Shown one piece after another: positions 7,523 to 29,983 of a DNA stretch of 29,983 nt; the stretch's first letter is position 1, and every line of letters begins with the position of its first letter. The notes beneath the pieces were generated by a model. The model searched no databases. It had not been told where the DNA came from and worked only from the letters and a program-made list of their open reading frames with translations. Made by a program: the position numbers and the translations under genes. The stretch comes from a virus. The DNA lies in the IMG/VR virus record IMGVR_UViG_3300010391_000071, positions 1 to 29,983 of that record; one strand, 5' to 3'.

Positions 7523-8540
7523 GACTCTTACCTCCAACACGTTGTGAGTTACCGAGAGCTGCTTCGAGCTCTATGACGATGAGGTCATCCGGTTGGGCTG
7601 TCTCATCACAGTCCTCTGGATATGAGACCTCATAGACTCCGAACGTACTTGCTGCGAGCCTCTGGCACACGCGGGCGCTACCTTTTCGACCAGGCTCGTT
7701 GTTGTCTAGCAGTACGAAGGTCTCCACACCCAGGCTCCTGACGATTCGTTCCTGGTTGGGGGATATCCGTGCGCCCATGAGGGCTACAGTGTTGATCCAG
7801 CCGTTCTGGACCAGCCACAGCGCAGCCTTGTAGCCCTCGACAATGATGAGCTGCTCTTGACCTCCTTCGTTCTTCATGAGGCGCTCGTAGCACCTGTCCA
7901 GCCTCCACAGATGGTCACGCACGCCCTCGTTGGTGTAGTCCGGGTACCATTCCCCTAGCTCTCCCAGCACCTCCTTTCCGTCTATGACCCGACGACCACT
8001 GTAGATGAGGTACTTGGGCTCTTCCCCAATCATCGTGGCCCGACCCGAGATACCAACTAAGTTGCCGAACAGGTCCCTTATGGGGAAAGTTACGCGGTTA
8101 TTGCGCCTGTCATACCCAATCTCGTGTTCCTGCAACACGCCCTTGTCAAACCCAGCTTCCACCAGGTCCAGGGGCATGAAGTCGAAGACCCCGAGCAGGG
8201 CGTCAGGGAGCAGGTGTTCGCCGGCGAACGGCTTCCTGGCCTTCCTGCGTGCCCTGGCCTTATCCACCTCAATGGTCTTCTTCGCTTCCTTCTCGGCCTC
8301 CTCTAGCCGGGCGTCGAAATGAGCCGTGCTAACCCCCAGCTTCTTCAGAAGCCACTTGAGCCCACCTCCATGCTCACCACAGGTGAAACAGCCCCAGTTC
8401 CCTATCTGTCGATTGACCCAGAACGAAGGCATGGACTCGTGCCCTCCTTTGTGGAAAGGGCATGCGGCCGAGATGAACTCGTCCTTGACCCGGACTCTCT
8501 TGAGGTATTGCTGGGCGATCTCGTCAGCAAGGCTGCTCAT
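7446..8540 (-). CDS. dnaG: DnaG-type DNA primase
   Basis: The product has 364 residues. A CHC2 zinc finger stands at the N-terminus (C27, H30, C51, C54), a primase core follows, and then a TOPRIM domain with VEGYKAAL (E235) and LLDNNEPGRKG (D279). In DnaG proteins the zinc finger recognises template and the TOPRIM residues bind catalytic metal for RNA primer synthesis. The usual DxD of TOPRIM reads D-N-N here, so the second Asp is Asn. The protein lacks a C-terminal helicase-binding domain of bacterial length. Its start overlaps the helicase stop as ATGA, a common coupling for replisome partners. Its last 77 bp overlap the start of the SSB candidate. The last 35 residues (after about residue 330) look unconserved. 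Confidence 0.9.
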   Translation of the reverse strand: MSSLADEIAQQYLKRVRVKDEFISAACPFHKGGHESMPSFWVNRQIGNWGCFTCGEHGGGLKWLLKKLGVSTAHFDARLEEAEKEAKKTIEVDKARARRKARKPFAGEHLLPDALLGVFDFMPLDLVEAGFDKGVLQEHEIGYDRRNNRVTFPIRDLFGNLVGISGRATMIGEEPKYLIYSGRRVIDGKEVLGELGEWYPDYTNEGVRDHLWRLDRCYERLMKNEGGQEQLIIVEGYKAALWLVQNGWINTVALMGARISPNQERIVRSLGVETFVLLDNNEPGRKGSARVCQRLAASTFGVYEVSYPEDCDETAQPDDLIVIELEAALGNSQRVGGKSHVRRELRQLGRQPGGRSTVRARSQQ

Positions 8541-11347
8541 TTCATCCCCGAGTTTGCCAGGGCCTTGTTGAAGTCCGACGCGGTCTTTGGCTCCGCTCGT
8601 TCCTTCTTGGCGGGGGTGTCGTCGTCCTTGTCGTCGATCTTCATCCAGTCCTTGATGCGCTTCATGTCTGGCTTGTCCGTGATGAGGCTGAAGTTGTAGG
8701 ACGGAATGGCCTTGATTGTGAATGCCTCCAGTGTGCCCTCACGATTGCCACCCATCACCAGTGCTAGCTCCCCACCTACCCTCTTGATGCCTGCCTCTGC
8801 GGAGAGCTTGTCCATCAGGTAGGAGTTCACCGTTCTCTTATCATCTACCTCTGACACTCCTAGCTTGATGCGGGGGAGCCTACGTCGGATGGGACTCGGG
8901 GCTGCTTTTGCATCTCGTAGTACCCGTACGAACTCCTCCTCGTAGTCCTCCTCATGCAGTCCGATGTAGCCGGGGCTCTTCAACACGCGAATGATGAGGT
9001 CGGCCTCCCTGGCTATGACGTCAGCATCTGCTAGGTCGGCCAGCGTGTTGCCGTAGGTCTTCTCACCAAGCCGATTGGCTTGATGCACCGCGACGATGGG
9101 CAGATGGACGTCTTCTGCATAGGCCTTCACGTCTTCCGCCATCGTTGCCACGCGCTGCCACCGTACCGTGATCTGCTCCGACCGCAGGGAGTCCATGTGG
9201 TAGAAGCTGTCCAGGTAGATGACGTCAGGCTCGAACTCTTCCACCTTCTCCTTCAGCCCCTCAAGACTCCTCGGGGCCTGCCTGCCGGCCAGCATGAGGA
9301 GATCCCGCATCCCTGCTGCAGCCCCTCGTCTCAGATCGTGCTTCACCCTGCCCGTGGTAAGAGACTCGAGCACGGCAAAGCAGTGCTCCCTCATCTTGGG
9401 TGGAAGCAGCCCCTTCTTAAACAGCTGGTAGTCAACCCGTGACAGCAGGGTTGCAAGACGAAGCCCCAGCTTGAGCGGGGACATCTCCTTCGACCAGATC
9501 AGGACCCGCTTGTTGTGGTTCAGGTAGTCGACGGCGGCGCAGTAGAGCAAGATCCATGTGTTGTGGACGACGAAGCCCTCCACAACAAAGTTCGGATCTT
9601 GCCCGTCCTCGATGCAGATGTCGTAGCAAGGCACTTGCCCGATTGGGGTTATGCTCTTGATCCTTTCCCAGGCAATGTCTTGGTTGGCTACATTTCGCAG
9701 CTCATCGGAGTCAAACGCCTCAGCCAGCTTTGTCAGCAAGCGCCTGCTGATCCGGCCGGACTGAAACAGCTTGGACTTATCCATCTTCGAGAGGCCAGAC
9801 TTTGGCCACTCGTATCCTTGCTTGGCTGCGATGATCGTGGACTCCAACTCCTTGGTCCACGGGATGGCGTCGGTGTTGACCCTCGTGGGCCCAGTGACGA
9901 CACCGAGCGTTGTGAGGGCCTTTCTCTTCCTTTCAGAGCTGAGGAACGGGCCCACAACCCTGTCAAGGGTCTGAGCGTCCTTCTTGGTGTAGACCGTCAA
10001 GCTGTAGGCTTCCGTCCCGTAATTGGTTGTGGCCTGATTCGCTCGGGCTCGAATGCCGAACCTGAGAAGGAGGTGTTGCAGATCCCCGATGAGCCCCTGG
10101 CTGGCGCTCTCCCATCGGACCACCTTCTTCACGTGGCCATCCGTATCGAGATAGCCCGCGATGAATGCGGCAATCGACTCCCGACTAGAGGTGAAGACTG
10201 CTCTGGGAATCCGCTTCTCAGGACCCTTGCTGCCATGGATCCCTAGATCCTTGAGTAGAGTGAGCACCTTGTTGTGCTTCTCTGTTGCCTCTCGACGGAC
10301 TCGGAACTCGATTGGCCGAGCCCCTACCGTGAGCACACAGTTATGACGAGCAGCATGCCTTCTCAGAGCCTGTAGGACGTCCTGATCAGCGCGAGTGTAG
10401 TTCCCGTCGCCTACCAACAGCCCTAGTAGATGCGCATCCTCGGGAGTTACTTGGTCTTTGTCTGGGCTCCATTCGGGCAGAGACCTAGCGGTGGCGACGT
10501 GGTTCCCCACTCTCAGATCCTTGATTCTCCGGTACTTGCCTCCTGGAACCATGTAGAGATGGTCCTTGCTGGTTCGGAGCCGCAGTCCGGACTCCGTCAC
10601 GACCTCCACGCTGTCTTTGGTGCCACTTACCACTCGCCTGGCCTTGGCCATGCGGATACGGCCGGTGGTCTCTGTGAACGACGGTGCCTTACAGAGCTCA
10701 GGTACCTCTTCGATAGGCAGCAGGGCTCCGTCTGGCATCATGACGCGCTGCCCTTCGCAGACGCACTTCATGCTCTTCATGCGGCCGTAGAACACCACGA
10801 AGTCACCGCCACGCTTGCCGAGCGTGTCCTCGGTCAGGCACTGCCAAGGCCAGGGAACCCCGAAGATGGCCCCCGTCTGGGCACCCTCGTAGTGCTCCTT
10901 GGCCATTGACAGGATTTCCTGGACACCCATCCCATTGGACTGCTCACCGGTATTGAGCTTGACCTCTATCTCCAACAGGCGCTTCTTCAACACCTGGATG
11001 GCGTTGACCGGGTCTTCCTCGACGAGCTCCTTGAAGTACTCCGACATCGACCAGACGTCGGACTCGAAAGCCTTCATCTTCAGTTCGTCGATGAGTGCTG
11101 TGAGCACCCCTTCCTCGTCCTGACTTGTGGCCGTAAGCGTGAACGCTGGCCACCTCTGGCGGACACGCTGTATTGTGGGCAGAGTTCCATTGGTATTTGG
11201 GTTGTACCAGTGCTGCTTCAGGAACCTGAAGATCATCCTGGAGTCGGGGTTGAGGAAGTGCTCTTCACATAGGCCGCGCTTCACCACCTCTTGAAACGAC
11301 CCGCTCTTCAGTACCTTCGTGAGAACACGATCCTCTAGTGCTGCCAT
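8537..11347 (-). CDS. dnaB: DnaB-type replicative helicase interrupted by an intein
   Basis: The precursor has 936 residues. Removing the intein (residues 195-596) leaves a 534-residue helicase. The N-terminal part (1-130) fits the DnaB N-domain. The RecA-type motor follows, with the P-loop split by the intein: GRMKSMK before it and T after it. Walker B is PDVIYLDSFYHMD, and the H3/H4 segment is PIVAVHQANR. DnaB proteins are hexameric 5'-3' helicases that unwind the fork and recruit primase. The rebuilt P-loop is GRMKSMKT, in which the Gly of the usual GK(T/S) is Met. The start at 11347 is preceded by GAGAGG. The C-terminus is Lys/Asp-rich. The primase start overlaps its stop. An accurate annotation must report mature helicase and intein separately. 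Confidence 0.93.
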   Translation of the reverse strand: MAALEDRVLTKVLKSGSFQEVVKRGLCEEHFLNPDSRMIFRFLKQHWYNPNTNGTLPTIQRVRQRWPAFTLTATSQDEEGVLTALIDELKMKAFESDVWSMSEYFKELVEEDPVNAIQVLKKRLLEIEVKLNTGEQSNGMGVQEILSMAKEHYEGAQTGAIFGVPWPWQCLTEDTLGKRGGDFVVFYGRMKSMKCVCEGQRVMMPDGALLPIEEVPELCKAPSFTETTGRIRMAKARRVVSGTKDSVEVVTESGLRLRTSKDHLYMVPGGKYRRIKDLRVGNHVATARSLPEWSPDKDQVTPEDAHLLGLLVGDGNYTRADQDVLQALRRHAARHNCVLTVGARPIEFRVRREATEKHNKVLTLLKDLGIHGSKGPEKRIPRAVFTSSRESIAAFIAGYLDTDGHVKKVVRWESASQGLIGDLQHLLLRFGIRARANQATTNYGTEAYSLTVYTKKDAQTLDRVVGPFLSSERKRKALTTLGVVTGPTRVNTDAIPWTKELESTIIAAKQGYEWPKSGLSKMDKSKLFQSGRISRRLLTKLAEAFDSDELRNVANQDIAWERIKSITPIGQVPCYDICIEDGQDPNFVVEGFVVHNTWILLYCAAVDYLNHNKRVLIWSKEMSPLKLGLRLATLLSRVDYQLFKKGLLPPKMREHCFAVLESLTTGRVKHDLRRGAAAGMRDLLMLAGRQAPRSLEGLKEKVEEFEPDVIYLDSFYHMDSLRSEQITVRWQRVATMAEDVKAYAEDVHLPIVAVHQANRLGEKTYGNTLADLADADVIAREADLIIRVLKSPGYIGLHEEDYEEEFVRVLRDAKAAPSPIRRRLPRIKLGVSEVDDKRTVNSYLMDKLSAEAGIKRVGGELALVMGGNREGTLEAFTIKAIPSYNFSLITDKPDMKRIKDWMKIDDKDDDTPAKKERAEPKTASDFNKALANSGMK
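9560..10765 (-). mobile_element. Intein in the helicase P-loop with LAGLIDADG endonuclease
   Basis: This is an in-frame 402-residue intein (precursor residues 195-596). It starts with Cys (CVCEGQRVMMPDG, splicing block A), has a TSKDHLY block B (residues 259-265) and ends VVEGFVVHN, followed by Thr as the first C-extein residue. Inside are the two LAGLIDADG helices, LLGLLVGDG (D314) and FIAGYLDTDG (D401/D403), so the homing endonuclease appears intact. It sits exactly between Lys and Thr of the Walker A motif, so the helicase should be inactive until splicing. Cys1, the terminal His-Asn and Thr+1 are all present, which predicts splicing competence. Confidence 0.92.
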
Positions 11348-16416: not shown

Positions 16417-18834
16417 ATGAAGAAGGTCAAGACCTCAGGAATAGCCGAGCGTGTCGGCAGGGCGGGTGCCGAAGGCGTCATGGAGGGTGTCCGCGCCCGC
16501 CTCGGCCCTATCCTTGAAGAGCAGGTTGGCCCGTTCTGGAACAGGCTACACAAGGAACTCCCTGGAACTGCCCGTGAGACTGTTCGACAGGCTGCTGAAG
16601 AGGCCAAGGACATCGGTAGCCGAGCTATCAGAGGTGTCAGCTTGCCCGCCGGCCTTGGTGCAGGAGCAGGGGCACTCACGGCTCCAGAAGGCGAACGGGG
16701 GGAAGGCGCACTTCGAGGTGCTGCGGGCGGCTTGGCTGGTAGCCTGGTCGGGGCAGCTTGGGGGCACAGTCTTCCGTCGGCAGCGGGTCGCGCGCTGACC
16801 CTCGGGGGAAGTACTCTAGGTGGCGCTGGCGCTGGGGCAACACTGAGGCACGGGAACAAGGAGAAGCCCATGAAGAACAAGTACGCTGGTGTCGTTCTCG
16901 ACGCTTACGACGACATGGGCGCAACCTTGAAGGTCAAGTTTCCCACTCTCGAGTCCCTGCCCGATATCATCAAGACTGCCGATGTACGGCCCATGGAGAA
17001 GCTGGGCAACGAGGACTTCGCACTCATCGCGCTCGACGAGGGCCACGTCCTTCGCAAGTACGCTTGCCACGACGCGGGCACCACGGCGATGTCCGTCGTC
17101 TACTTCATGGAGCATGGGGACAAGCTTCCCGAGAATGCCCAGAAGCTGGCTGCGGTCAATCTTGTCCAGGCCTGTCGGCGCTTTGACATCAGACCGCCGG
17201 ATCTCCTAGTGAAAACTGCCGGGCTTGTTCCTGAGTTGCGGAACATGATCGCAGGGGCTTTGGGGGGCGGTGTTGGGGAGGCAGCAATAAACCCAGACCT
17301 GAACCTTCGTGATCTTGGTATCTCTTTGGCAGTTGGTGCCGCGACTGGGCTGCTACCAGTCCCAGCAAACACCATGATGAGGGCTCTGGGAGGGGCCATG
17401 GTTCCTGCTGTTTCCCACGCTGCGGGAAACACCATGTCAGGAGGAGAGAAACGCTCCACTGGCACTATCGGTGGGGGTGGCGCAGTAGGCAACCCAGAGA
17501 AGGAGAGCCAGAAGCTGGCAGCAGCCAACCTCGCCCGTGCCTGCATTCGCTTCGACCTTGACCCGCCTGAAGCGCTGGTGAAGACGGCTGTCTCACCGGA
17601 GTGGGTCAAAGGGACGGTCGCACGATGGGCCCCAAAAGCTACGCGCGAAGCAATTCTGTCTGGTCCGGCAGCGTTGAGACGCCACACTACTCGACTAATG
17701 TCAGCGGCCGAGAAGCACTCTCCGCAGGCAGGCGCTAAGCACGAGGCACTGGCCCACCAGCTCCTGGGGCAGTGGGGGGTTGCGAAAAGCTACCGGCACC
17801 CAAAGGAGCTAGCGGCGGCTCGAGAGACACTGCTGGCAAGAGGTTTTGCCCCCGCCAAGGTGGCTGCGGCCCCCTCGGGTGGCGAGAGCCAGAAGCAGGC
17901 TGCAGACATCATCGCTGGCGGCAAGGCCGACAAGAAGACCAGCAGCGACTTCTCACCAAAGCAGATGGAGATGGGGAAGAAGGTCGAGAAGGAGCACACG
18001 AACAACCCACAGGTCGCGGCGGAGGTGGCCCGCGTTCACCTCGAAGAGATCCCCGACTACTATACGAGGCTCGACAAGATGGAGAACGAGGCCAAGCAGG
18101 CGAACGTGGTGGACATCACAGGCAAGCGGCCGACTCCGAAGGTCAAGGTCGCCAAAGCAAGTGGGCCTGAGGATTACGCTGTCATCCTCGATGGCAAGGG
18201 CTACTACCCCATCCACACCTGGGACCTCGTGAAGAAGGCCGAGGTCTACTACCAGGAGGAGAAGGGTCGGATGCAGCCAGAGGTCCGCAGGCAGTACGCG
18301 GTCAAGCTCGCAGACAAGGCCGCATCGATGGGCTACCCGCTAGACCCAGACGTCCTGGAAGCCGGTGCCACAAGTTGGGCCCCGAAGGGTCACTTGAAGG
18401 CGGCGGTTGAGATGCGCAAGATCGCCTGCCAGCCAGGCACTGGAGACCGCAAGTTCCTCGACGAGCTCTTCGAGAAGCGTGCCAGCATCGACCCACCCAC
18501 CTACGCCGAGGTGCTACGCCGCTTTGATGTAGAGCACGGGCTCGACAAGGGCTGGGACCACGTCATCCTAGACCCGTGGGCTTCGACCTTCGGGCTCAAC
18601 AAGACGGCTGATGTGGTGTGGGAGGACGGCGCCGATCGGGTGACCAACGACCAGCTAATGTTCCTTTCCCAGAACCATGCTGCCTTCAACCGTGACTTCA
18701 CTGAGGAGTTCCGCAAGGAGTTCCAGAAGGACCCGGTGTCCATCTTCGAGTCCCTACCTCTACCCCAGAAGCGCATCATTGCCAGGCTGGCGGCTGACTT
18801 CCCACACCAGAGTGAGATCACCCAGAGCCGCTAG
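16417..18834 (+). CDS. Probable virion protein with internal repeat and possible second start
   Basis: The product has 805 residues from ATG 16417 (GAGG upstream). Residues 1-150 are Ala/Gly-rich with glycine-zipper-like stretches (GLGAGAGAL, GGLAGSLVGAAWG, GGSTLGGAGAG). An in-frame ATG at 16870 has a perfect AAGGAG six bases before it and could start a 654-residue product (MKNKYAGVVLDAYDD). A 28-residue motif occurs twice (241-268 and 364-391), with 19 identities; a Gly-rich hydrophobic segment lies between. Later parts are charged and helical, including SGPEDYAVILDGKGYYPIHT (about 585-604). No named family is recognised. First place in the head-gene block and co-orientation with the portal gene suggest a structural or internal virion protein. 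Confidence 0.7.
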   Translation: MKKVKTSGIAERVGRAGAEGVMEGVRARLGPILEEQVGPFWNRLHKELPGTARETVRQAAEEAKDIGSRAIRGVSLPAGLGAGAGALTAPEGERGEGALRGAAGGLAGSLVGAAWGHSLPSAAGRALTLGGSTLGGAGAGATLRHGNKEKPMKNKYAGVVLDAYDDMGATLKVKFPTLESLPDIIKTADVRPMEKLGNEDFALIALDEGHVLRKYACHDAGTTAMSVVYFMEHGDKLPENAQKLAAVNLVQACRRFDIRPPDLLVKTAGLVPELRNMIAGALGGGVGEAAINPDLNLRDLGISLAVGAATGLLPVPANTMMRALGGAMVPAVSHAAGNTMSGGEKRSTGTIGGGGAVGNPEKESQKLAAANLARACIRFDLDPPEALVKTAVSPEWVKGTVARWAPKATREAILSGPAALRRHTTRLMSAAEKHSPQAGAKHEALAHQLLGQWGVAKSYRHPKELAAARETLLARGFAPAKVAAAPSGGESQKQAADIIAGGKADKKTSSDFSPKQMEMGKKVEKEHTNNPQVAAEVARVHLEEIPDYYTRLDKMENEAKQANVVDITGKRPTPKVKVAKASGPEDYAVILDGKGYYPIHTWDLVKKAEVYYQEEKGRMQPEVRRQYAVKLADKAASMGYPLDPDVLEAGATSWAPKGHLKAAVEMRKIACQPGTGDRKFLDELFEKRASIDPPTYAEVLRRFDVEHGLDKGWDHVILDPWASTFGLNKTADVVWEDGADRVTNDQLMFLSQNHAAFNRDFTEEFRKEFQKDPVSIFESLPLPQKRIIARLAADFPHQSEITQSR
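17137..17589 (+). repeat. Internal protein duplication (two copies of a 28-residue motif)
   Basis: Copy 1 is nt 17137-17220 and copy 2 is nt 17506-17589. Shared core features are QKLAA, NL, AC, RFD, PP and LVKTA, at 19 of 28 positions. Each copy ends just before a more variable segment. The copies lie 123 residues apart, with a hydrophobic Gly-rich stretch between, as if one module had been duplicated or a membrane-like segment inserted. Confidence 0.75.
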
Positions 18835-20998: not shown

Positions 20999-23900
20999 AT
21001 GATTGACGCCCTGACGTTCGGCCCTGCAGGCGGCCTGCGCTTCTCCAGGAACACTGGCCGTTCCATGACCAGTGAGGCCCTTGGGGCCATCCGCTACCCC
21101 TCGCCCTTCTTCGACATCGCGCACACGTATCTGCCGTCGTCCTTCAAGACGATGCTCAGGTGGTGCCGCTACTATTACCTGACGAACCCGATTATCAGTG
21201 CGGTCTGCTCGAAGATGGCAGAGTACCCAGTGACGGACCTCGTGTTCGACACCGAGAACGAGACCCTTCGCAAGCAGTGGGAGTACTTCTTCCACAACGT
21301 CCTCAAGTTCAAGATGTTCGAGGTCGAGGCTGGGCTCGACTACAACGTCTACGGTAACGCCCTCATCTCGATGGCCTTCCCGTTCCAGAAGCTGCTTATC
21401 TGCAAGCACTGCAACCATACGGCCCGCATCGAGAAGCAGAAGTATATCTTCCGCGAGTACAAGTTCGTGGGTGAGTGCCAGAGGTGCGGCAACCATCAGG
21501 AGTTCCAGGTCCGCGACCACTACGTCCGATCGGTCCGTGACATCCGACTGATTCGCTGGAACCCAGAGTACATCACCGTCCAGCACAATGAGGCCACGGG
21601 CGAGAGCCGGTACTACTACGTCATTCCGCCGATGCTGGCGAACGATGTGCGCATGGCGAAGCGGCACATCATCGAGCGCATCCCGCAGGTCTTCATGGAG
21701 GCACTGCGCCAGAACAAGGCGCTGCTCTTCAGTCGGGACAACATCTACCACATGAAGCGCCCCACCATCGCCCAGAAGGACAAGGGCTGGGGCATGCCGA
21801 TGATCCTGCCGGTGTTGAAGGACACCTTCTACCTGCAGGTCCTCCGCAAGGCGCAGGAGGCCATTGCCGTCGAGCACATCGTCCCTCTTCGACTGCTCTT
21901 CCCGCAGACGGCCTCACCTGATGCGAGTGTCTACTGCACGTCGCTGGACACCCTAGTCGAAACTCGAGATGGACCTCTGCCTGCGTCGGAAGTGAAGTTG
22001 GGGGACTACCTCAAGTCACGCGTGGGGAGTTGGGAGAAGGTGGAAGCAATCGCGGATCGACCTGTTCGACCCGATGAGACGACCAGAGAGTTCACGGTGG
22101 CCTCCTTGCCCGCCTTCCCGTTCACCTTGTCGGAAGAGCACCCGGTGTGGGCAGCCACCGAACACAACCCTTGGAGCTACGATGGGGTAGGAGAGCCGGA
22201 CTGGGTCGATTCCAAGGATCTGAAGGAAGGCGACTTTGTCCTCTACCCCGTGGGCAGAAAGACCTGGTCCAACCTCGACCTCGATCTTGCTGGATACGTC
22301 AAAGAGCGGGCTTACACCGAGCGGTACATCTACCGTCGCCTGAGCCTAGCCAAGGCAGAGATCTACGAGTGGCTGGAGATGAACGGCTTGCCAGAGTTCC
22401 AACGTGGCGAGCGCGAGACCTTCCTTCAAGACCACAAGTGGGACCTCCAGGATTGGGTCACTGCCCGAAGTGTTTTCACCGAGCAGGAGTCGGTTGACCG
22501 AGTGCCTCGCTACCTCCGGGTGACTGAGGAGTTGGCCTACATCATCGGGCTATACGCAGCGGAGGGCTTCTCGAATGGGGACAGTGCCTCTTTGGCGCTC
22601 AACTCCAGCGAGACCAATCTTATGGACCGGATGGACGAGGCCCTGATGTCCATTGGAATGGGCGCCCCTACTCGTCATTTCCACTCGACGGACAAGGGGG
22701 CGACTTACGCCACCAACGACGTCATCTTGGGCGAGTTCCTGAAGAACGCCTGTGGACATGGGGCGGGCCACAAGAAGCTTCCCCGGTTCATTATGGAAGC
22801 GCCTGACGGCATTGCTCTAGCTGCCTTGGAGGGCCTGTTCTCGGGGGATGGGTCCTGCACGTTCACAGAAGCCACCTCAACGGTAGGACTGGTCACCACT
22901 AGCCCGTCACTGGCTGTAGGGTCTCGGCAGCTACTTCTTTCCATGGGGTACATCCCCACTATCAGCAAGCGCGCGCCCAAAGAAGGCAGCTTCGGAATCA
23001 GCGACTCTTACGAGGTTCGCTGCAGCGGCGCGCAGGCTGAGTCGTTGGCAGGAGCGTTCGGCTGGCCAGTCGTGGGCAAGACTCGGGTGAAGAATGAATG
23101 GAGCGGCTGCGGGTTCATCCGGGACGGCTATGTCTACCTGAGGGTCAGGAAGGTCGCAGAGCGACCCGTCTCTACCGTGCGTGGCTTCCAGATGGCGGGG
23201 GACAAGTCCTTCTGTGTGGTGGGGGTGGCAACCCACAACTCGACGGTCAACCTGACCCAGTGGCGTGACAAGATCGAGCAGGAGATCGTTCGCTGGAGAC
23301 TCGACAACAACTACATCCCTCTCCTCCCCATTCCTGTAGGCCAGCAGACCCTCGGCGGCGATGGTCGTGCCCTCATGCTGGCGCAGGAGTACCGGGTGTG
23401 GTGCGAGCACATCATCTCCGGCATGGGCGTTCCCATCGAGTTCTACTTTGGCGGGATGCAGTTCTCAGGCAGCAACGTCTCGATGCGTATCCTCGAGAAC
23501 CACTTCCTTGACCAAAGGACCCAGCGTAAGCAGCTGGTCACCGACTTCATCATGCCTAACGTCTCAGCATTCATGGGCTGGGAGCCGGTGCCGTGCCACT
23601 ACAAGCGCTTCAAGATGGCTGACGACCTGCGGCGCAGTGCCCTCTACCTGCAGATGAACCAGGCTGGCAAGCTGTCCGACAAGTCCCTGATGGAAGACAT
23701 GGACTGGGATGCCGTCAAGGAGTCCGAGATCATCTCCATCGAGCAGAAGCGCGTCCTCGAGAACCAGCGTTCCCAGGCTCTCGCACAGGCAGGCATCCAG
23801 GGTGAAGCACAGCTCGTCCAGGTGAAGTACCAGATGCGCGGCCAGAAGATCATGATGGAGCAACAGGTTCCGCCCATTGCCCCGGAGGACCAGAAGATGC

Positions 23901-24340
23901 TCCAGGAGCAGGGTATGGCCGCAGCGGGGCAGCCTGGCGTGGCCAGCCCAACAGCGATGGGCGCACAGGGCAACTCCCAGATGGCGATGATGAACCGGGC
24001 AGGGGCTGTCCCACCCATGCCGTTCGCCGGCGAACAGCAGGGCCAAGAACAGGGACAGGGGTCAGCAGCGGCTGCAGGTGGGGAGTCTCCACTGGTCGCT
24101 AACCAACCAGCCCAGATGGATATCTTCACCGTGGCCAACCAGGTAGTCGGTTGGCTCAACCAGCTGCCCGAGCATGAGAAGCAGAAGGAGCTCGTGCAGA
24201 TGCAGCAGGCCAACCCACAGCTCTACTCTATGGTTCTGCAGCTGCTGCAGCAGAGCCGTGGGGCCAACAAGAACTCGGCTGCCATGCCATTGCCTGAGCA
24301 GAGGCCCCCAATGCGCGGCCCGGAGGCGTCATCGATATGA
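20999..24340 (+). CDS. Portal protein interrupted by an intein
   Basis: The precursor has 1113 residues; removing the intein (313-747) leaves 678. The N-extein reads like a portal: TNPIISAVCSKMAEYPVTDL (62-81), FEVEAGLDYNVYGNALISM, and RDNIYHMKRPTIAQKDKGWG. The C-extein continues with the portal stem region and ISGMGVPIEFYFGGMQFSGS, and ends in a Gln/Ala/Met-rich tail. Portals form the dodecameric ring at the capsid vertex through which DNA is packaged and ejected. A zinc ribbon (C135, C138, C160, C163) is inserted near residue 150, which is uncommon. Translation starts four bases after the previous stop, with a weak GGGTGA site. The next gene overlaps its stop as ATGA. Confidence 0.85.
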   Translation: MIDALTFGPAGGLRFSRNTGRSMTSEALGAIRYPSPFFDIAHTYLPSSFKTMLRWCRYYYLTNPIISAVCSKMAEYPVTDLVFDTENETLRKQWEYFFHNVLKFKMFEVEAGLDYNVYGNALISMAFPFQKLLICKHCNHTARIEKQKYIFREYKFVGECQRCGNHQEFQVRDHYVRSVRDIRLIRWNPEYITVQHNEATGESRYYYVIPPMLANDVRMAKRHIIERIPQVFMEALRQNKALLFSRDNIYHMKRPTIAQKDKGWGMPMILPVLKDTFYLQVLRKAQEAIAVEHIVPLRLLFPQTASPDASVYCTSLDTLVETRDGPLPASEVKLGDYLKSRVGSWEKVEAIADRPVRPDETTREFTVASLPAFPFTLSEEHPVWAATEHNPWSYDGVGEPDWVDSKDLKEGDFVLYPVGRKTWSNLDLDLAGYVKERAYTERYIYRRLSLAKAEIYEWLEMNGLPEFQRGERETFLQDHKWDLQDWVTARSVFTEQESVDRVPRYLRVTEELAYIIGLYAAEGFSNGDSASLALNSSETNLMDRMDEALMSIGMGAPTRHFHSTDKGATYATNDVILGEFLKNACGHGAGHKKLPRFIMEAPDGIALAALEGLFSGDGSCTFTEATSTVGLVTTSPSLAVGSRQLLLSMGYIPTISKRAPKEGSFGISDSYEVRCSGAQAESLAGAFGWPVVGKTRVKNEWSGCGFIRDGYVYLRVRKVAERPVSTVRGFQMAGDKSFCVVGVATHNSTVNLTQWRDKIEQEIVRWRLDNNYIPLLPIPVGQQTLGGDGRALMLAQEYRVWCEHIISGMGVPIEFYFGGMQFSGSNVSMRILENHFLDQRTQRKQLVTDFIMPNVSAFMGWEPVPCHYKRFKMADDLRRSALYLQMNQAGKLSDKSLMEDMDWDAVKESEIISIEQKRVLENQRSQALAQAGIQGEAQLVQVKYQMRGQKIMMEQQVPPIAPEDQKMLQEQGMAAAGQPGVASPTAMGAQGNSQMAMMNRAGAVPPMPFAGEQQGQEQGQGSAAAAGGESPLVANQPAQMDIFTVANQVVGWLNQLPEHEKQKELVQMQQANPQLYSMVLQLLQQSRGANKNSAAMPLPEQRPPMRGPEASSI
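21935..23239 (+). mobile_element. Intein in the portal gene with LAGLIDADG endonuclease
   Basis: This is a 435-residue intein (precursor residues 313-747). It starts CTSLDTLVETRDG (block A), has a TLSEEHPVWA block B (H381) and ends DKSFCVVGVATHN, followed by Ser as the first C-extein residue. LAGLIDADG helices are YIIGLYAAEG (E522) and ALEGLFSGDG (D617), each keeping an acidic residue, so the endonuclease may be active. The exteins join as ASPDASVY to STVNLTQW. Confidence 0.92.
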
Positions 24341-25846: not shown

Positions 25847-26000
25847 CCTAGCCTCCGGGCTTGGGTCAAAGATTGGGCCTCCGTAGTTCTTATGCCAGAA
25901 GTTGGTGCCTTGCTTTCATGGGTGTAGGATGTCTGGAAACGTGGTACCCATCCATCGCTCAGGCTGCCTCGCGTAGCCCACGACAGTGCTGAGAGGCCTG
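25847..26000. promoter_or_regulatory. Divergent spacer upstream of rpoB with a promoter candidate
   Basis: This 154-bp spacer lies between the leftward small-gene cluster and rpoB. The best plus-strand promoter is TTGGTG (25902-25907), 17 bp, TAGGAT (25925-25930), which would give a leader of about 64 nt. It matches the sigma-70 consensus at 3 of 6 and 4 of 6 bases, so it is weak. On the minus strand no convincing promoter was found. GAGAGG (25991-25996) is the rpoB ribosome site. Confidence 0.4.
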
Positions 26001-29000
26001 ATGGCACACTACTCGCCGGAAGACGCCTTTGAAGAGCTGAAGCAGCGTACCTCCAAGACAATCCAGAACTACTTCCCGATCGAAGGTCGGCAGCACACGT
26101 TGTCTGCCAAGAAGGTCTGGGTCGAGGACAACAAGGGTGTCGACGACATCCGCGATCAGAAGGACGCCAAGGTCAAGGGTCGTAGTTGGACCGTCCCCAT
26201 CCGTGCCGAGCTCGAGCTGAAGGACAACCTGACCGGCAAAATCATCGACCGCCAGGTCGTCAACGTTGCTCAGCTCCCCAAGATCACCCGTCGCTACAGC
26301 TACATCGTTGACGGCAACGAATGGCAGGTGAACAACGTCTTCCGCATGAAGTCGGGTGTCTACACCCGCATCCGGAAGAACGGTGAGCTCACCGCCATGT
26401 GGAACCTGGCCAAGGGCCAGAACTTCCACATGGACTTCAGCCCGAAGAACCAGAAGATGTCGCTTCGCTACGGCGAGGCTCAGATTCCTCTCTACCCGGT
26501 GCTCAAGACTATGGGCATCGATGACGACTCCATAGAGCGCTCTTGGGGCAAGGACATCTTCAGTGCCAACAAGGCAGGGACTGATGAGGTAGCCCTTCGC
26601 AAGTTCTACCGAGCCATACGTGGGTCCAACCCAGAGACTCTGGATGAGGCCAAGAAGTTCATCCTCGACGAGTTCGACAAGTCGGTCCTGCGCCCCGACT
26701 CCACCCAGCTCACTCTTGGCAAGCCCTATGACAAGGTTTCAGGGTCGGCTCTCCTCGATGGCTCTCACAAGATCCTGAGGGTCTCCCGCCAGGAGATTGA
26801 GCCAGATGACCGGGACTCACTCCCGTTCAAAGACCTCCACTCTGCTGAAGATCTCATCAACGAGCGCCTGGAGAAGTGGAAGACCGAGAAGGATGTCAAG
26901 AGGAAGATTGGCAACACACTGGACAAGAACACCAAGGTCCGGGACATCATCAACCCGGATATCTTCGGCAAGCCCCTGCGCCGTTTCTTCACCAGCTCCG
27001 TTCTTTCTGAGCGTCCGACGCAGACGAACCCCATCAGCTTCATCTCGGGGAACCGGAAGACCACTCTCTTTGCACCTGGTGAAGGCGGCATCTCTTCGGC
27101 CCACCAGATTTCTCTCGAGGCCCAGTCCATCAACCCCAGCCACCTGGGCTTCTTGGATCCAATCATGACCCCGGAGAGCGAGCGCATCGGCGTGACGCTG
27201 CAGCTCGCCTCCCAAGTAGTGAAGGAAGGGCACGATATCAAGATCCCTGTCTTCAACATGAAGACCGGCAAGCGGGACATGATCAACCCGTATCAAGCGC
27301 TCAAGTCCAACCTCGCCTTCCCTGACCAGTACGAGTGGAAGGGAGGCAAGCCGACCTCTTTGAAGACCCACATAAAGGTCTCCGACCCCGACGGCACTGT
27401 GACAGTGGTGAAACCAAGCGAGGTGGACTACGTCCTTGGTTCGTCAAAGGGCATGTTTGACCTACCGGCCAATCTGATCCCATTTCTCCAGAACAACCAG
27501 GGCAACCGCACCATGGTTGCCTCTCGCCAGATCGAACAGGCCATTGCCTTGAAGGATCGAGAAGCACCGTTGGTCCAGACCCGCAGCGACAAGCCTTCCC
27601 GCACGTTCGAGCAAGGCATTGGCGAGTTCGTGAGCCACGTCGCGCCGTTTGACGGCACCGTGGAGAAGGTGAAGAAGGACGGCATCATCATCAAGGACAA
27701 GGCTGGGAAGCGCCTTGAGGTTCAGCTCTACGACGACTTCCCCCTGAATGACGACAAGAGTGTTCTCAATAGCACCCCGACTGTGAAGGTGGGCGATTCG
27801 GTGAAGGCAGGGCAGGTAGTAGCCGACACCAACTTCACGAAGGGTGGCGTCTTGGCTCTAGGCACCAACCTGCGTGTCGCCTACATGCCCTGGAAGGGCT
27901 ACAACTTCGAGGACGGTATCGTCATCTCTGAGACTGCAGCCAGGAAGCTAACGTCGGAGCACCTCTTCCGGGAAGGTATCACCGCCGAGAAGAGCCTCAG
28001 GCTCGACAAGAAGAAGTTCCTCTCCTACATGGCCGGCAAGGTCTCGAACGAGCAGGCTGAGAAGCTTGACGATGACGCAATCATTCGTGAGGGTCAGGTT
28101 GTCAACAAGGACGATGTTCTCATAGGTGTGCTCAAGGAGGAGACGATTAGCCCAGACGAGCAGAAGCTCGGGTTGTTCTCGAAGGGGCTCATACGTCCCT
28201 GGAAGCCTCGTGAGATCCGCTGGACGAAGGACGTCCCCGGCATGGTCACCAAGGTGGTGAAGCACGGTAGGGACACTACGATCTACATCCGTGCAGAGAC
28301 ACCGGCAGACGTGGGCGACAAGATCGTGGGGCGGCACGGCAACAAGGGCATCATCACGAACATCATGCCCGATCATGAGATGCCCCATGACAAGGATGAC
28401 AAGCCTGTCGAGGTCATCCTCAATCCAACTGGCATTCCCTGCTACGACGAGGAGACGGAGTTCCTCACGACTGAGGGGTGGGTCCGGGCTCCCGACATCA
28501 AGGCAGAGCACACCTACGCCACGCTCAACCCCAAGACTCTGACTTTGGAGTTCCAGAAGCCCGAAGAGGTCTATCATGTCCCCCACAAGGGCAAGATGTA
28601 CCGAGTCCAGAATCAGCAGCTTGACGTGCTGGTGACCCCAAACCACAAGCAGTTTACGGCAAGGCGGGGCAACCACCTGATGTCTGGACCTCTTGATCTG
28701 GACAACCCGGAGGTGCCGTCCCTATTCGAGCTGAGAGAGGCCAAGGAGATATTCGGGCAGCCTCGCCGGTACCTGAAGGCTGCCAGATGGGGAGGCACCA
28801 GCGAGTTTATGTACCACGTGCCGAACGGCACTCCGGCCTCAAGCGGCCGGCCGGCTGACGGGTTCAACATCAGCGCTCCCCAGTGGGCCGAGTTCATGGG
28901 GTGGTACCTGTCGGAGGGCAGCACCTACTTCAATCAGGCCAACTACGGATATGTAGTCGAGATCTCCCAGAGCAAGGAAGCTAACCCGGAGAAGTACGAT

Positions 29001-29983
29001 CGGATCGTTGCTCTCGTGGAGATGATGGGAGTGAACTTCGAGCAGGCGCCGCAAGGCATTCGCATCAAGCACAAAGGGCTCTATGAGCTGCTCCGGCCCC
29101 TGGGAGGAGCTCGAGAGAAGTACATCCCTCGCTCAGTGCTCGACATGGATTCGAGGCACTTGAGGATTTTCCTGGATGCACTTCTCTCTGGTGATGGATC
29201 GGAAACGTGGGACGAGGAGACGGGCCACTACGGTAACCAGCGCTACTGGACTTCGTCCAAGCTTCTTGCCGACGGCGTACAGGAAGTATGCGCCAAGCTC
29301 GGCATTGCGGCCAACGTGAAGAGAGAGACTCGCCGCGGGGAGGGGGCCTGCTACCACCTGTCGATTAGCGGGAGCCGCGCTGCTCCTTGGGTGAACTGGT
29401 CAGACACTACCAAGCTTAACCAGGTGGAGGAGTGGATCGACTACGACGGGATCGTTCACTGCGCCACGGTCCCCAATGGAGTCCTTCTAGTCCGAAGGAA
29501 CGGCAAGGCAGTCTTCAGCGGTAACACTCGTATCAATCTTGGCCAGGTACTCGAGACCTCTGCAGCCAAGATTGCGGAGAAGACTGGCAAGCCCTACGTC
29601 GTCAACAACTTCGACCCCAAGGTTCCTGACTACACACGGAAGCTGAAGGCGGAGCTGAAAGAGGCGGGCGTTTCGGATACCGAGGACCTCTACGACCCAG
29701 TCACCAAGCGCAAGTTCCCAAACGTCCTGGTTGGGCCCCAGTACATCCTCAAGCTGCACCATACAGCAGAGAAGGGTCTGTCCGTCCGCTCTCGCGATGC
29801 CTACGATTCAAACATGCTACCTGCCGGCGGCGGTCCCAAGGGCGGTCAGACCATGGATGTCATGGGCCTGTACGCCATGCTGGCGCACAACGCCCGCGAG
29901 AACATCCGCGAGATGCAGACCTATAAGTCCGATTTTAACGATGATTTCTGGGCCCAGCTCCAAGCAGGAGATTCGATCCCCAC
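26001..29983 (+). CDS. rpoB: RNA polymerase beta subunit interrupted by an intein (C-terminus beyond window)
   Basis: The frame is open for 1327 codons from ATG 26001 to the window end. Without the intein (814-1175), 965 residues of beta are visible. Landmarks in order, aligned by eye to bacterial beta, are: the protrusion-type YSYIVDGNEWQVNNVFR; the fork region NPSHLGFLDPIMTPESERIG; PANLIPFLQNNQGNRTMVAS; YNFEDGIVISE (634-644); VGDKIVGRHGNKGII (771-785, with K774 and K782 at positions matching catalytic-site lysines of E. coli beta); VEVILNPTGIP; and after the intein TRINLGQVLET, LKLHHTAEKGLSVRS, GGQTMDVMGLYAML and ENIREMQTYKSD. Beta with beta' forms the RNA polymerase active centre. A phage copy implies its own transcription of phage genes. 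It is a single polypeptide here, not split as in phiKZ-type phages. The ribosome site is GAGAGG. Confidence 0.95.
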   Translation, partial: MAHYSPEDAFEELKQRTSKTIQNYFPIEGRQHTLSAKKVWVEDNKGVDDIRDQKDAKVKGRSWTVPIRAELELKDNLTGKIIDRQVVNVAQLPKITRRYSYIVDGNEWQVNNVFRMKSGVYTRIRKNGELTAMWNLAKGQNFHMDFSPKNQKMSLRYGEAQIPLYPVLKTMGIDDDSIERSWGKDIFSANKAGTDEVALRKFYRAIRGSNPETLDEAKKFILDEFDKSVLRPDSTQLTLGKPYDKVSGSALLDGSHKILRVSRQEIEPDDRDSLPFKDLHSAEDLINERLEKWKTEKDVKRKIGNTLDKNTKVRDIINPDIFGKPLRRFFTSSVLSERPTQTNPISFISGNRKTTLFAPGEGGISSAHQISLEAQSINPSHLGFLDPIMTPESERIGVTLQLASQVVKEGHDIKIPVFNMKTGKRDMINPYQALKSNLAFPDQYEWKGGKPTSLKTHIKVSDPDGTVTVVKPSEVDYVLGSSKGMFDLPANLIPFLQNNQGNRTMVASRQIEQAIALKDREAPLVQTRSDKPSRTFEQGIGEFVSHVAPFDGTVEKVKKDGIIIKDKAGKRLEVQLYDDFPLNDDKSVLNSTPTVKVGDSVKAGQVVADTNFTKGGVLALGTNLRVAYMPWKGYNFEDGIVISETAARKLTSEHLFREGITAEKSLRLDKKKFLSYMAGKVSNEQAEKLDDDAIIREGQVVNKDDVLIGVLKEETISPDEQKLGLFSKGLIRPWKPREIRWTKDVPGMVTKVVKHGRDTTIYIRAETPADVGDKIVGRHGNKGIITNIMPDHEMPHDKDDKPVEVILNPTGIPCYDEETEFLTTEGWVRAPDIKAEHTYATLNPKTLTLEFQKPEEVYHVPHKGKMYRVQNQQLDVLVTPNHKQFTARRGNHLMSGPLDLDNPEVPSLFELREAKEIFGQPRRYLKAARWGGTSEFMYHVPNGTPASSGRPADGFNISAPQWAEFMGWYLSEGSTYFNQANYGYVVEISQSKEANPEKYDRIVALVEMMGVNFEQAPQGIRIKHKGLYELLRPLGGAREKYIPRSVLDMDSRHLRIFLDALLSGDGSETWDEETGHYGNQRYWTSSKLLADGVQEVCAKLGIAANVKRETRRGEGACYHLSISGSRAAPWVNWSDTTKLNQVEEWIDYDGIVHCATVPNGVLLVRRNGKAVFSGNTRINLGQVLETSAAKIAEKTGKPYVVNNFDPKVPDYTRKLKAELKEAGVSDTEDLYDPVTKRKFPNVLVGPQYILKLHHTAEKGLSVRSRDAYDSNMLPAGGGPKGGQTMDVMGLYAMLAHNARENIREMQTYKSDFNDDFWAQLQAGDSIP
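28440..29525 (+). mobile_element. Intein in the RNA polymerase beta gene with LAGLIDADG endonuclease
   Basis: This is a 362-residue intein (precursor residues 814-1175) starting CYDEETEFLTTEGW (block A), with QLDVLVTPNHKQFTA as block B. The endonuclease helices are EFMGWYLSEG (E972) and FLDALLSGDG (D1065). Block F/G reads HCATVPNGVLLVRRNGKAVF and ends SGN. The penultimate residue is Gly instead of the usual His; Asn is followed by Thr. The exteins join NPTGIP to TRINLGQ, so it sits in one of the most conserved parts of beta. Confidence 0.93.

Follow-up and report, generated by a model that had tools for sequence, protein, structure and literature searches.

A probable single-chain RNA polymerase core gene, with beta joined to beta′, in a group of tailed phages

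The DNA considered here, hereafter the window, is the whole IMG/VR virus record IMGVR_UViG_3300010391_000071 (29,983 bases), the right end of which carries an open reading frame (ORF) for the beta subunit of a cellular-type RNA polymerase (RNAP). This ORF can be regarded with good confidence as the beginning of a gene that encodes a single-chain RNAP core, in which beta is joined directly to beta′. An earlier reading of the letters without database searches (the sequence-only reading) had expected a separate beta′ gene downstream. In every close relative, on the contrary, beta′ is the continuation of the same polypeptide, and by this homology the window's own gene is almost certainly fused to beta′ as well. 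The joined gene is shared by tailed phages of a group that is both large and widely distributed.

Beta and its intein in the window

The ORF occupies positions 25986-29981 on the plus strand and is open to the contig end. A GTG at 25986 is an alternative start, and the start used by the relatives corresponds to the ATG at 26001 (MAHYSPEDAF), so that the beta part of the probable beta-beta′ gene extends over 26001..29981 (plus strand), from where the relatives continue in frame into beta′. Pfam detects Rpb2_2 (slightly below the cut-off), Rpb2_3 and Rpb2_6 in the bacterial order, the Rpb2_6 match (1.5e-52) falling into two pieces separated by a LAGLIDADG_3 match, and the NCBIfam rpoB model matches the ORF at 6e-93; beta domains in this order with such Pfam scores are far beyond a chance match. 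The identity to bacterial beta is 26%.

The element that separates the two pieces comprises 362 amino acids (aa) with a LAGLIDADG endonuclease domain (28440..29525, plus strand; LAGLIDADG_3, 8e-9). It begins with Cys1, ends with Asn and is followed by Thr as the +1 nucleophile, and it is inserted at GIP^TRINLGQ, a conserved site that reads GVPTRINLGQ without interruption in intein-free relatives and is also the insertion site in the related locus L034. By these sequence features the insert is a LAGLIDADG intein. As delimited by the Pfam matches and the intein bounds, the N-extein (26001..28439, plus strand) contains beta residues 1-813, with the lobe, the fork and the first part of the double-psi barrel/Rpb2_6. 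The C-extein (29526..29981, plus strand), for which the junction alignment was used in addition, contains the second part of Rpb2_6 up to spliced residue 965. The 965 beta residues that remain without the intein stop before the beta/beta′ boundary of the relatives, with approximately 20 residues lacking.

The sequence-only reading had described an unsplit beta with an intein, starting at 26001 and with its landmarks in bacterial order, and the Pfam order, the ATG of the relatives and the 362-aa intein agree with this description. Its term "full-length" holds in that beta is not split; it is only nearly true because the window stops about 20 residues before the end of beta. The compact N-terminal lobe that it proposed is also borne out, as the conserved FF is located at residue 329 in the window versus 505 in E. 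coli beta and 466-496 in Bacteroidota; the lineage-specific SI1 insertion of E. coli accounts for part of the difference from that species.

Seven distinct intein insertion sites, among them the trigger loop of L006, were found across the RNAP family, all within conserved stretches, and the 30-kb contig of the window itself carries three inteins, in the genes for a DnaB-like helicase (8537-11347, minus strand) and the portal protein (20999-24340, plus strand) and in the RNAP gene (28440-29525, plus strand). In Vibrio phage D181 (L010:7504-8455) and in L335:11545-12475, the beta frame is interrupted by a segment with a homing-endonuclease-like gene, which is possibly a self-splicing intron.

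Beta joined to beta′ in the relatives

The four nearest relatives (L003-L006) are viral contigs 78-88% identical to the window over beta, and in 4/4 of them beta′ follows beta in frame with NADFDGD, the trigger loop and the second zinc site present. The single chains measure 2058 aa in L004, 2059 aa in L005, 2419 aa in L003 (one intein) and 2656 aa in L006 (two inteins, on a 192-kb contig). Along the one chain of L004, Pfam finds Rpb2_2, Rpb2_3, Rpb2_6, Rpb1_1, Rpb1_2, Rpb1_3, Rpb1_4 and Rpb1_5, the weakest of these below the cut-off; the rpoB and rpoC models of NCBIfam both match it, and the best NCBIfam models by score are two fused beta/beta′ families.

Scanning more widely yielded 318, 455 and 377 confirmed related stretches, in sets that overlap each other. 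The loci retained from the first two of these sets contain 116 unique joined ORFs/contigs (107 complete), with a median ORF of ~2090 aa from stop to stop when L092, which derives from a metagenome-assembled genome (MAG), is excluded. The same query recovered Bacteroidota loci with ordinary separate rpoB and rpoC, so the search was not blind to separate genes. Since no clade member cut at the beta/beta′ boundary was found among the sampled loci, the join is ancestral to the sampled clade. In L061:9950-16021, in L349:9920-16042 and in L072, which is the same contig as L219, the fused frame is interrupted by TGA alone. The 11 TGA codons of L061 stand at tryptophan positions (e.g., YMP*KGYNFED), and these phages probably read TGA as Trp. 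L349, considered as an unfused member, was rejected for its single frame with TGA-only interruptions.

Aligned with E. coli, the end of beta, SLGINIELEDE, meets phage KGMGLDI, and beta′ picks up after the junction at LTDKKVLEMSNG = LASPDMIRSWSFG; about 20 bacterial residues are absent and no linker is added. In bacterial RNAP, the C-terminus of beta lies near the N-terminus of beta′, and joining them is tolerated. For L004 residues 545-1480, an AlphaFold model based on 61 homologues (mean pLDDT 87.9, pTM 0.76) places the junction in a tight beta-hairpin at model residues ~441-454. In Foldseek searches, the modelled single chain matches both beta chains (8qti_C, 8gzh_C) and beta′ chains (8gzh_D, 9n9q_G); among the predicted viral structures searched, the further matches were distant RNAPs alone.

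Catalytic residues and lost domains

Beta R678, D814, K1065, K1073 and R1106 occur without exception in the 115 phage sequences (the lysines in 115/115, including the window), and beta′ R425, D460, D462 and D464 are invariant in 114/114 sequences that reach them, the beta′ residues being scored in the relatives as the window ends before beta′. Trigger-loop H936 is kept in 111 phage sequences and the cysteines of the second zinc site in 105-107. The first beta′ zinc domain is missing from all phage sequences covering that region, and the long insertion found in E. coli and Bacteroidota just after the trigger loop begins is not present. Among the rifampicin-contact positions, S531 is replaced by Thr in 113/115, the position of H526 is usually occupied by Gly, Asn, Ser or Ala, and that of D516 varies; given these differences, the phage RNAP is predicted to be rifampicin-resistant. 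The beta′ clamp-helix region can be aligned, and E. coli R275 and E295 are substituted in it, so that the contacts with sigma probably differ.

Gene neighborhood and phage origin

Upstream of the RNAP gene lies an intein-containing portal gene (20999..24340, plus strand; 1113 aa; LAGLIDADG_3, 6e-12), the product of which is 35% identical to the portal protein gp204 of Salmonella phage Arash. A portal gene is located just upstream of the RNAP gene in five distinct genomes (the window, L004, L006, Arash and Vibrio phage D69), which places the RNAP gene in the virion-assembly region. The minus-strand half of the window encodes a UvsX-like recombinase, a family A DNA polymerase (phage-type PolA), a primase, the intein-bearing DnaB-like helicase and a second helicase. 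No tRNA genes were found in the window, and no close nucleotide-level relatives of it among phage records. Related RNAP genes were found on phage contigs of up to ~200 kb and in the cultured phages Arash (180.8 kb), D69, D148 and D181 (the last three from Vibrio), and the contigs of the relatives carry portal and capsid homologs, of which the window shows the portal beside beta. The phage origin assumed at the outset is thus upheld by the portal next door and by the relatives. Two further observations concern other genes: L087:3249-9107 encodes a portal homolog of 1953 aa, apparently enlarged via at least two insertions, and an 805-aa protein of the window (16417-18834, plus strand) has a DUF5661 match and no PHROG family.

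Arash subclade and moved cut points

In Arash and D69, the beta/beta′ join is retained and the first protein ends past the active site; a separate downstream gene supplies the C-terminal part of beta′. In a scan led by Arash, 10 loci are cut in this manner and eight are cut three ways (~1130 + 385 + 620 aa), the remaining loci being too incomplete to class. In some Arash-like contigs (e.g., L289:13376-16490), several other genes lie between the RNAP pieces.

In a tree rooted with E. coli and three Bacteroidota, archaea and eukaryotes not being sampled, the phage clade is monophyletic on a branch of 1.36, which agrees with the earlier proposal of a lineage apart from bacterial rpoB. The window groups with the fully joined L003-L006 with high support and is 36% identical to Arash. 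The split subclade is nested inside the joined ones with weak support (0.52-0.56), and a topology in which it is sister to all joined members is not rejected (p-AU 0.37, from only 1000 resamplings). The order of these branches suggests that the cuts inside beta′ are likely later than the beta/beta′ join.

Proposed working of the enzyme

No alpha gene was detected in 13 long contigs of relatives, in which the controls were positive. Sigma region 2 was found in 5/13 long contigs and region 4 in 6/14, and Arash and D69 have annotated sigma genes. The sigma-like genes for which the sequence-only reading had suggested looking are hence carried by some family members only; in the window there was no sign of one. 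The simplest reading, drawn from sequence comparison, is that the core is made without a phage alpha and that it transcribes the genes of the phage together with a phage sigma factor or a replacement for it. The intein would excise itself before the joined chain folds. The two double-psi barrels, with beta K1065/K1073 and beta′ NADFDGD, would then form the usual metal-dependent active center within one molecule, the covalent joining of beta and beta′ taking the place of alpha-guided assembly. A clamp-helix region that is present but altered, together with sigma-like genes in some contigs, Arash and D69, makes promoter choice by a phage sigma factor or a substitute probable, and the phage genes would most likely be transcribed independently of the host RNAP. 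What the sequences show directly is the homology, the fusion in relatives, the kept catalytic residues and the constant position after the portal gene; the fusion of the window's own gene, the activity of the single chain, its independence of alpha, its use of sigma and its timing are inferred.

Several points weigh against this picture. The contig ends before the junction and the window's own beta′ is unseen, and no viral contig that overlaps and extends the window was found. The lack of alpha comes from incomplete contigs and is weak evidence, and host alpha could still serve; some long contigs have no sigma domain, and the nearest 192-kb relative has no region 2 and a weak region-4-like match in an 88-aa ORF only.

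Taken by itself, the window shows beta alone, and bacteria normally encode rpoB and rpoC as separate genes, as seen in L091, L093 and L160; a separately encoded phage beta with beta′ as the next gene would account for both. This arrangement is nevertheless highly improbable, because all four relatives at 78-88% identity keep both subunits in one frame, and every complete clade member has one frame across the boundary when the right genetic code is applied. Slightly less probable still is that beta and the N-terminal part of beta′ are joined in the window and the C-terminal part is encoded elsewhere; although this is the organization in Arash, D69 and many Arash-like contigs, the window belongs with the fully joined L003-L006. 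That two relatives, both with phage-type joined RNAP genes, lie on contigs binned in bacterial MAGs (L090, Actinomycetota; L092, Cloacimonadota) might raise the suspicion of a chromosomal fragment with bacterial rpoB or rpoBC, of a mis-assembly or of gene decay. However, a different contig of the L090 MAG gives a separate and far better Rpb2_6 match, which a phage contig placed in this bin would lead one to expect, and L090 and L092 are both probably phage contigs in bacterial bins. The phage neighbors (portal, UvsX-like recombinase, phage-type PolA) and the low identity to bacterial beta also contradict such an origin, and the open frame and the kept catalytic residues contradict decay. The neighbors and the tree refute a bacterial chromosome or mis-assembly, and the chance of any of these explanations is negligible.

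With a single-chain core as the preferred product of the gene, a further question is when it acts. The RNAP might be packaged in the virion and injected for early-gene transcription, instead of being made after infection. The gene follows the portal gene directly and lies near capsid and structural genes in distant relatives; on the other hand, a chain of ~230 kDa would need to pass the tail, and the sigma genes of relatives also fit late transcription of phage genes. Packaging thus appears rather unlikely, and the place of the gene beside the portal fits packaging and synthesis during infection alike.

Comparison with known systems

The clade of the window is very probably the mReC phage RNAP lineage, of which 97 contigs were described, their beta and beta′ branching deeply and separately from cellular RNAP (Weinheimer and Aylward, 2020; PMC7481178). 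As presented in the main text of that paper, mReC and the present clade alike comprise tailed phages from IMG/VR with beta and beta′ that match cellular profiles, NADxDGD and a clade separate from bacteria. The joined contig L221 comes from metagenome 3300017989, as do mReC1 and mReC3, a correspondence of sample and not of contig names; the Gp23-type capsid profile (PF07068) matched no contig and no control and is hence uninformative. The different lineage suggested by the sequence-only reading is not an undescribed one, as it fits the mReC clade. The deep-branching placement is taken from the published tree, the present outgroup being limited to E. coli and Bacteroidota. The main text of the 2020 paper treats beta and beta′ as concatenated subunits, with fusion mentioned for crAssphage only; the lineage published as multi-subunit here has one chain, re-cut inside beta′ in the Arash subclade. 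Arash (gp206/gp216) and D69 (gp261/gp264) belong to the same family (36% and ~32-34% identity), with the same join, no first beta′ zinc domain and a portal gene upstream, and differ in the separate gene for the C-terminal part of beta′ and in a more divergent trigger-loop region. One viral RNAP gene, described in 2023 as "beta and beta prime", clusters distantly with mReC (PMC10159854), and no earlier report of a beta-beta′ fusion in these phages was found in the open-access literature. The single-chain state of this lineage and the new cut places in one subclade thus appear to be unreported in the papers searched.

That the whole mReC-type lineage has a single-chain, alpha-free core, in which the otherwise near-universal beta/beta′ boundary was erased once and new two-way and three-way cuts in beta′ arose in one subclade, has about an even chance of being correct; if it is, natural variants within a single clade document how subunit borders have moved. 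A lineage presented as multi-subunit appears to encode its RNAP as one giant chain, and the reading of its trees changes because beta and beta′ share one history. The family also suggests that alpha-guided assembly is dispensable for a bacterial-type core. At ~2060 aa, with the catalytic residues retained and the first beta′ zinc domain missing, these enzymes may be suitable models of a minimal RNAP core, and Arash, D69 and the relatives cut three ways make the positions of cuts and joins directly testable.

Fusions of beta and beta′ occur in Helicobacter and Wolbachia. The two NCBIfam families that score best, PRK09603 and PRK14844, represent fused rpoBC from epsilonproteobacteria and Wolbachia, with the same order in one polypeptide; by contrast, the phage protein is ~2060 aa instead of ~2840-2890 aa, scores 601 of 5372 bits, far under the curated cut-offs, lacks the first zinc domain and has no alpha gene found alongside. 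Natural cellular fusions are also reported in Wolinella and Adlerbacteria (PMC11515920). As cellular fusions were already known, the phage enzyme is not a new category. The RNAPs of phiKZ/AR9-type jumbo phages are likewise phage-encoded and of cellular type, rifampicin resistance, here predicted, being a further likeness, but they have beta and beta′ each split into several polypeptides, at least four or five (PMC7598289); the beta of the window is one ORF, not split in that manner, as had been noted from the sequence, and beta and beta′ form one chain in its close relatives. CrAss-like and YonO RNAPs are also phage-encoded single polypeptides, described in the 2020 paper as too divergent for recognizable beta/beta′ sequence homology (PMC7481178); the RNAP of the window's family, in contrast, can be aligned over almost its whole length with bacterial beta and beta′.

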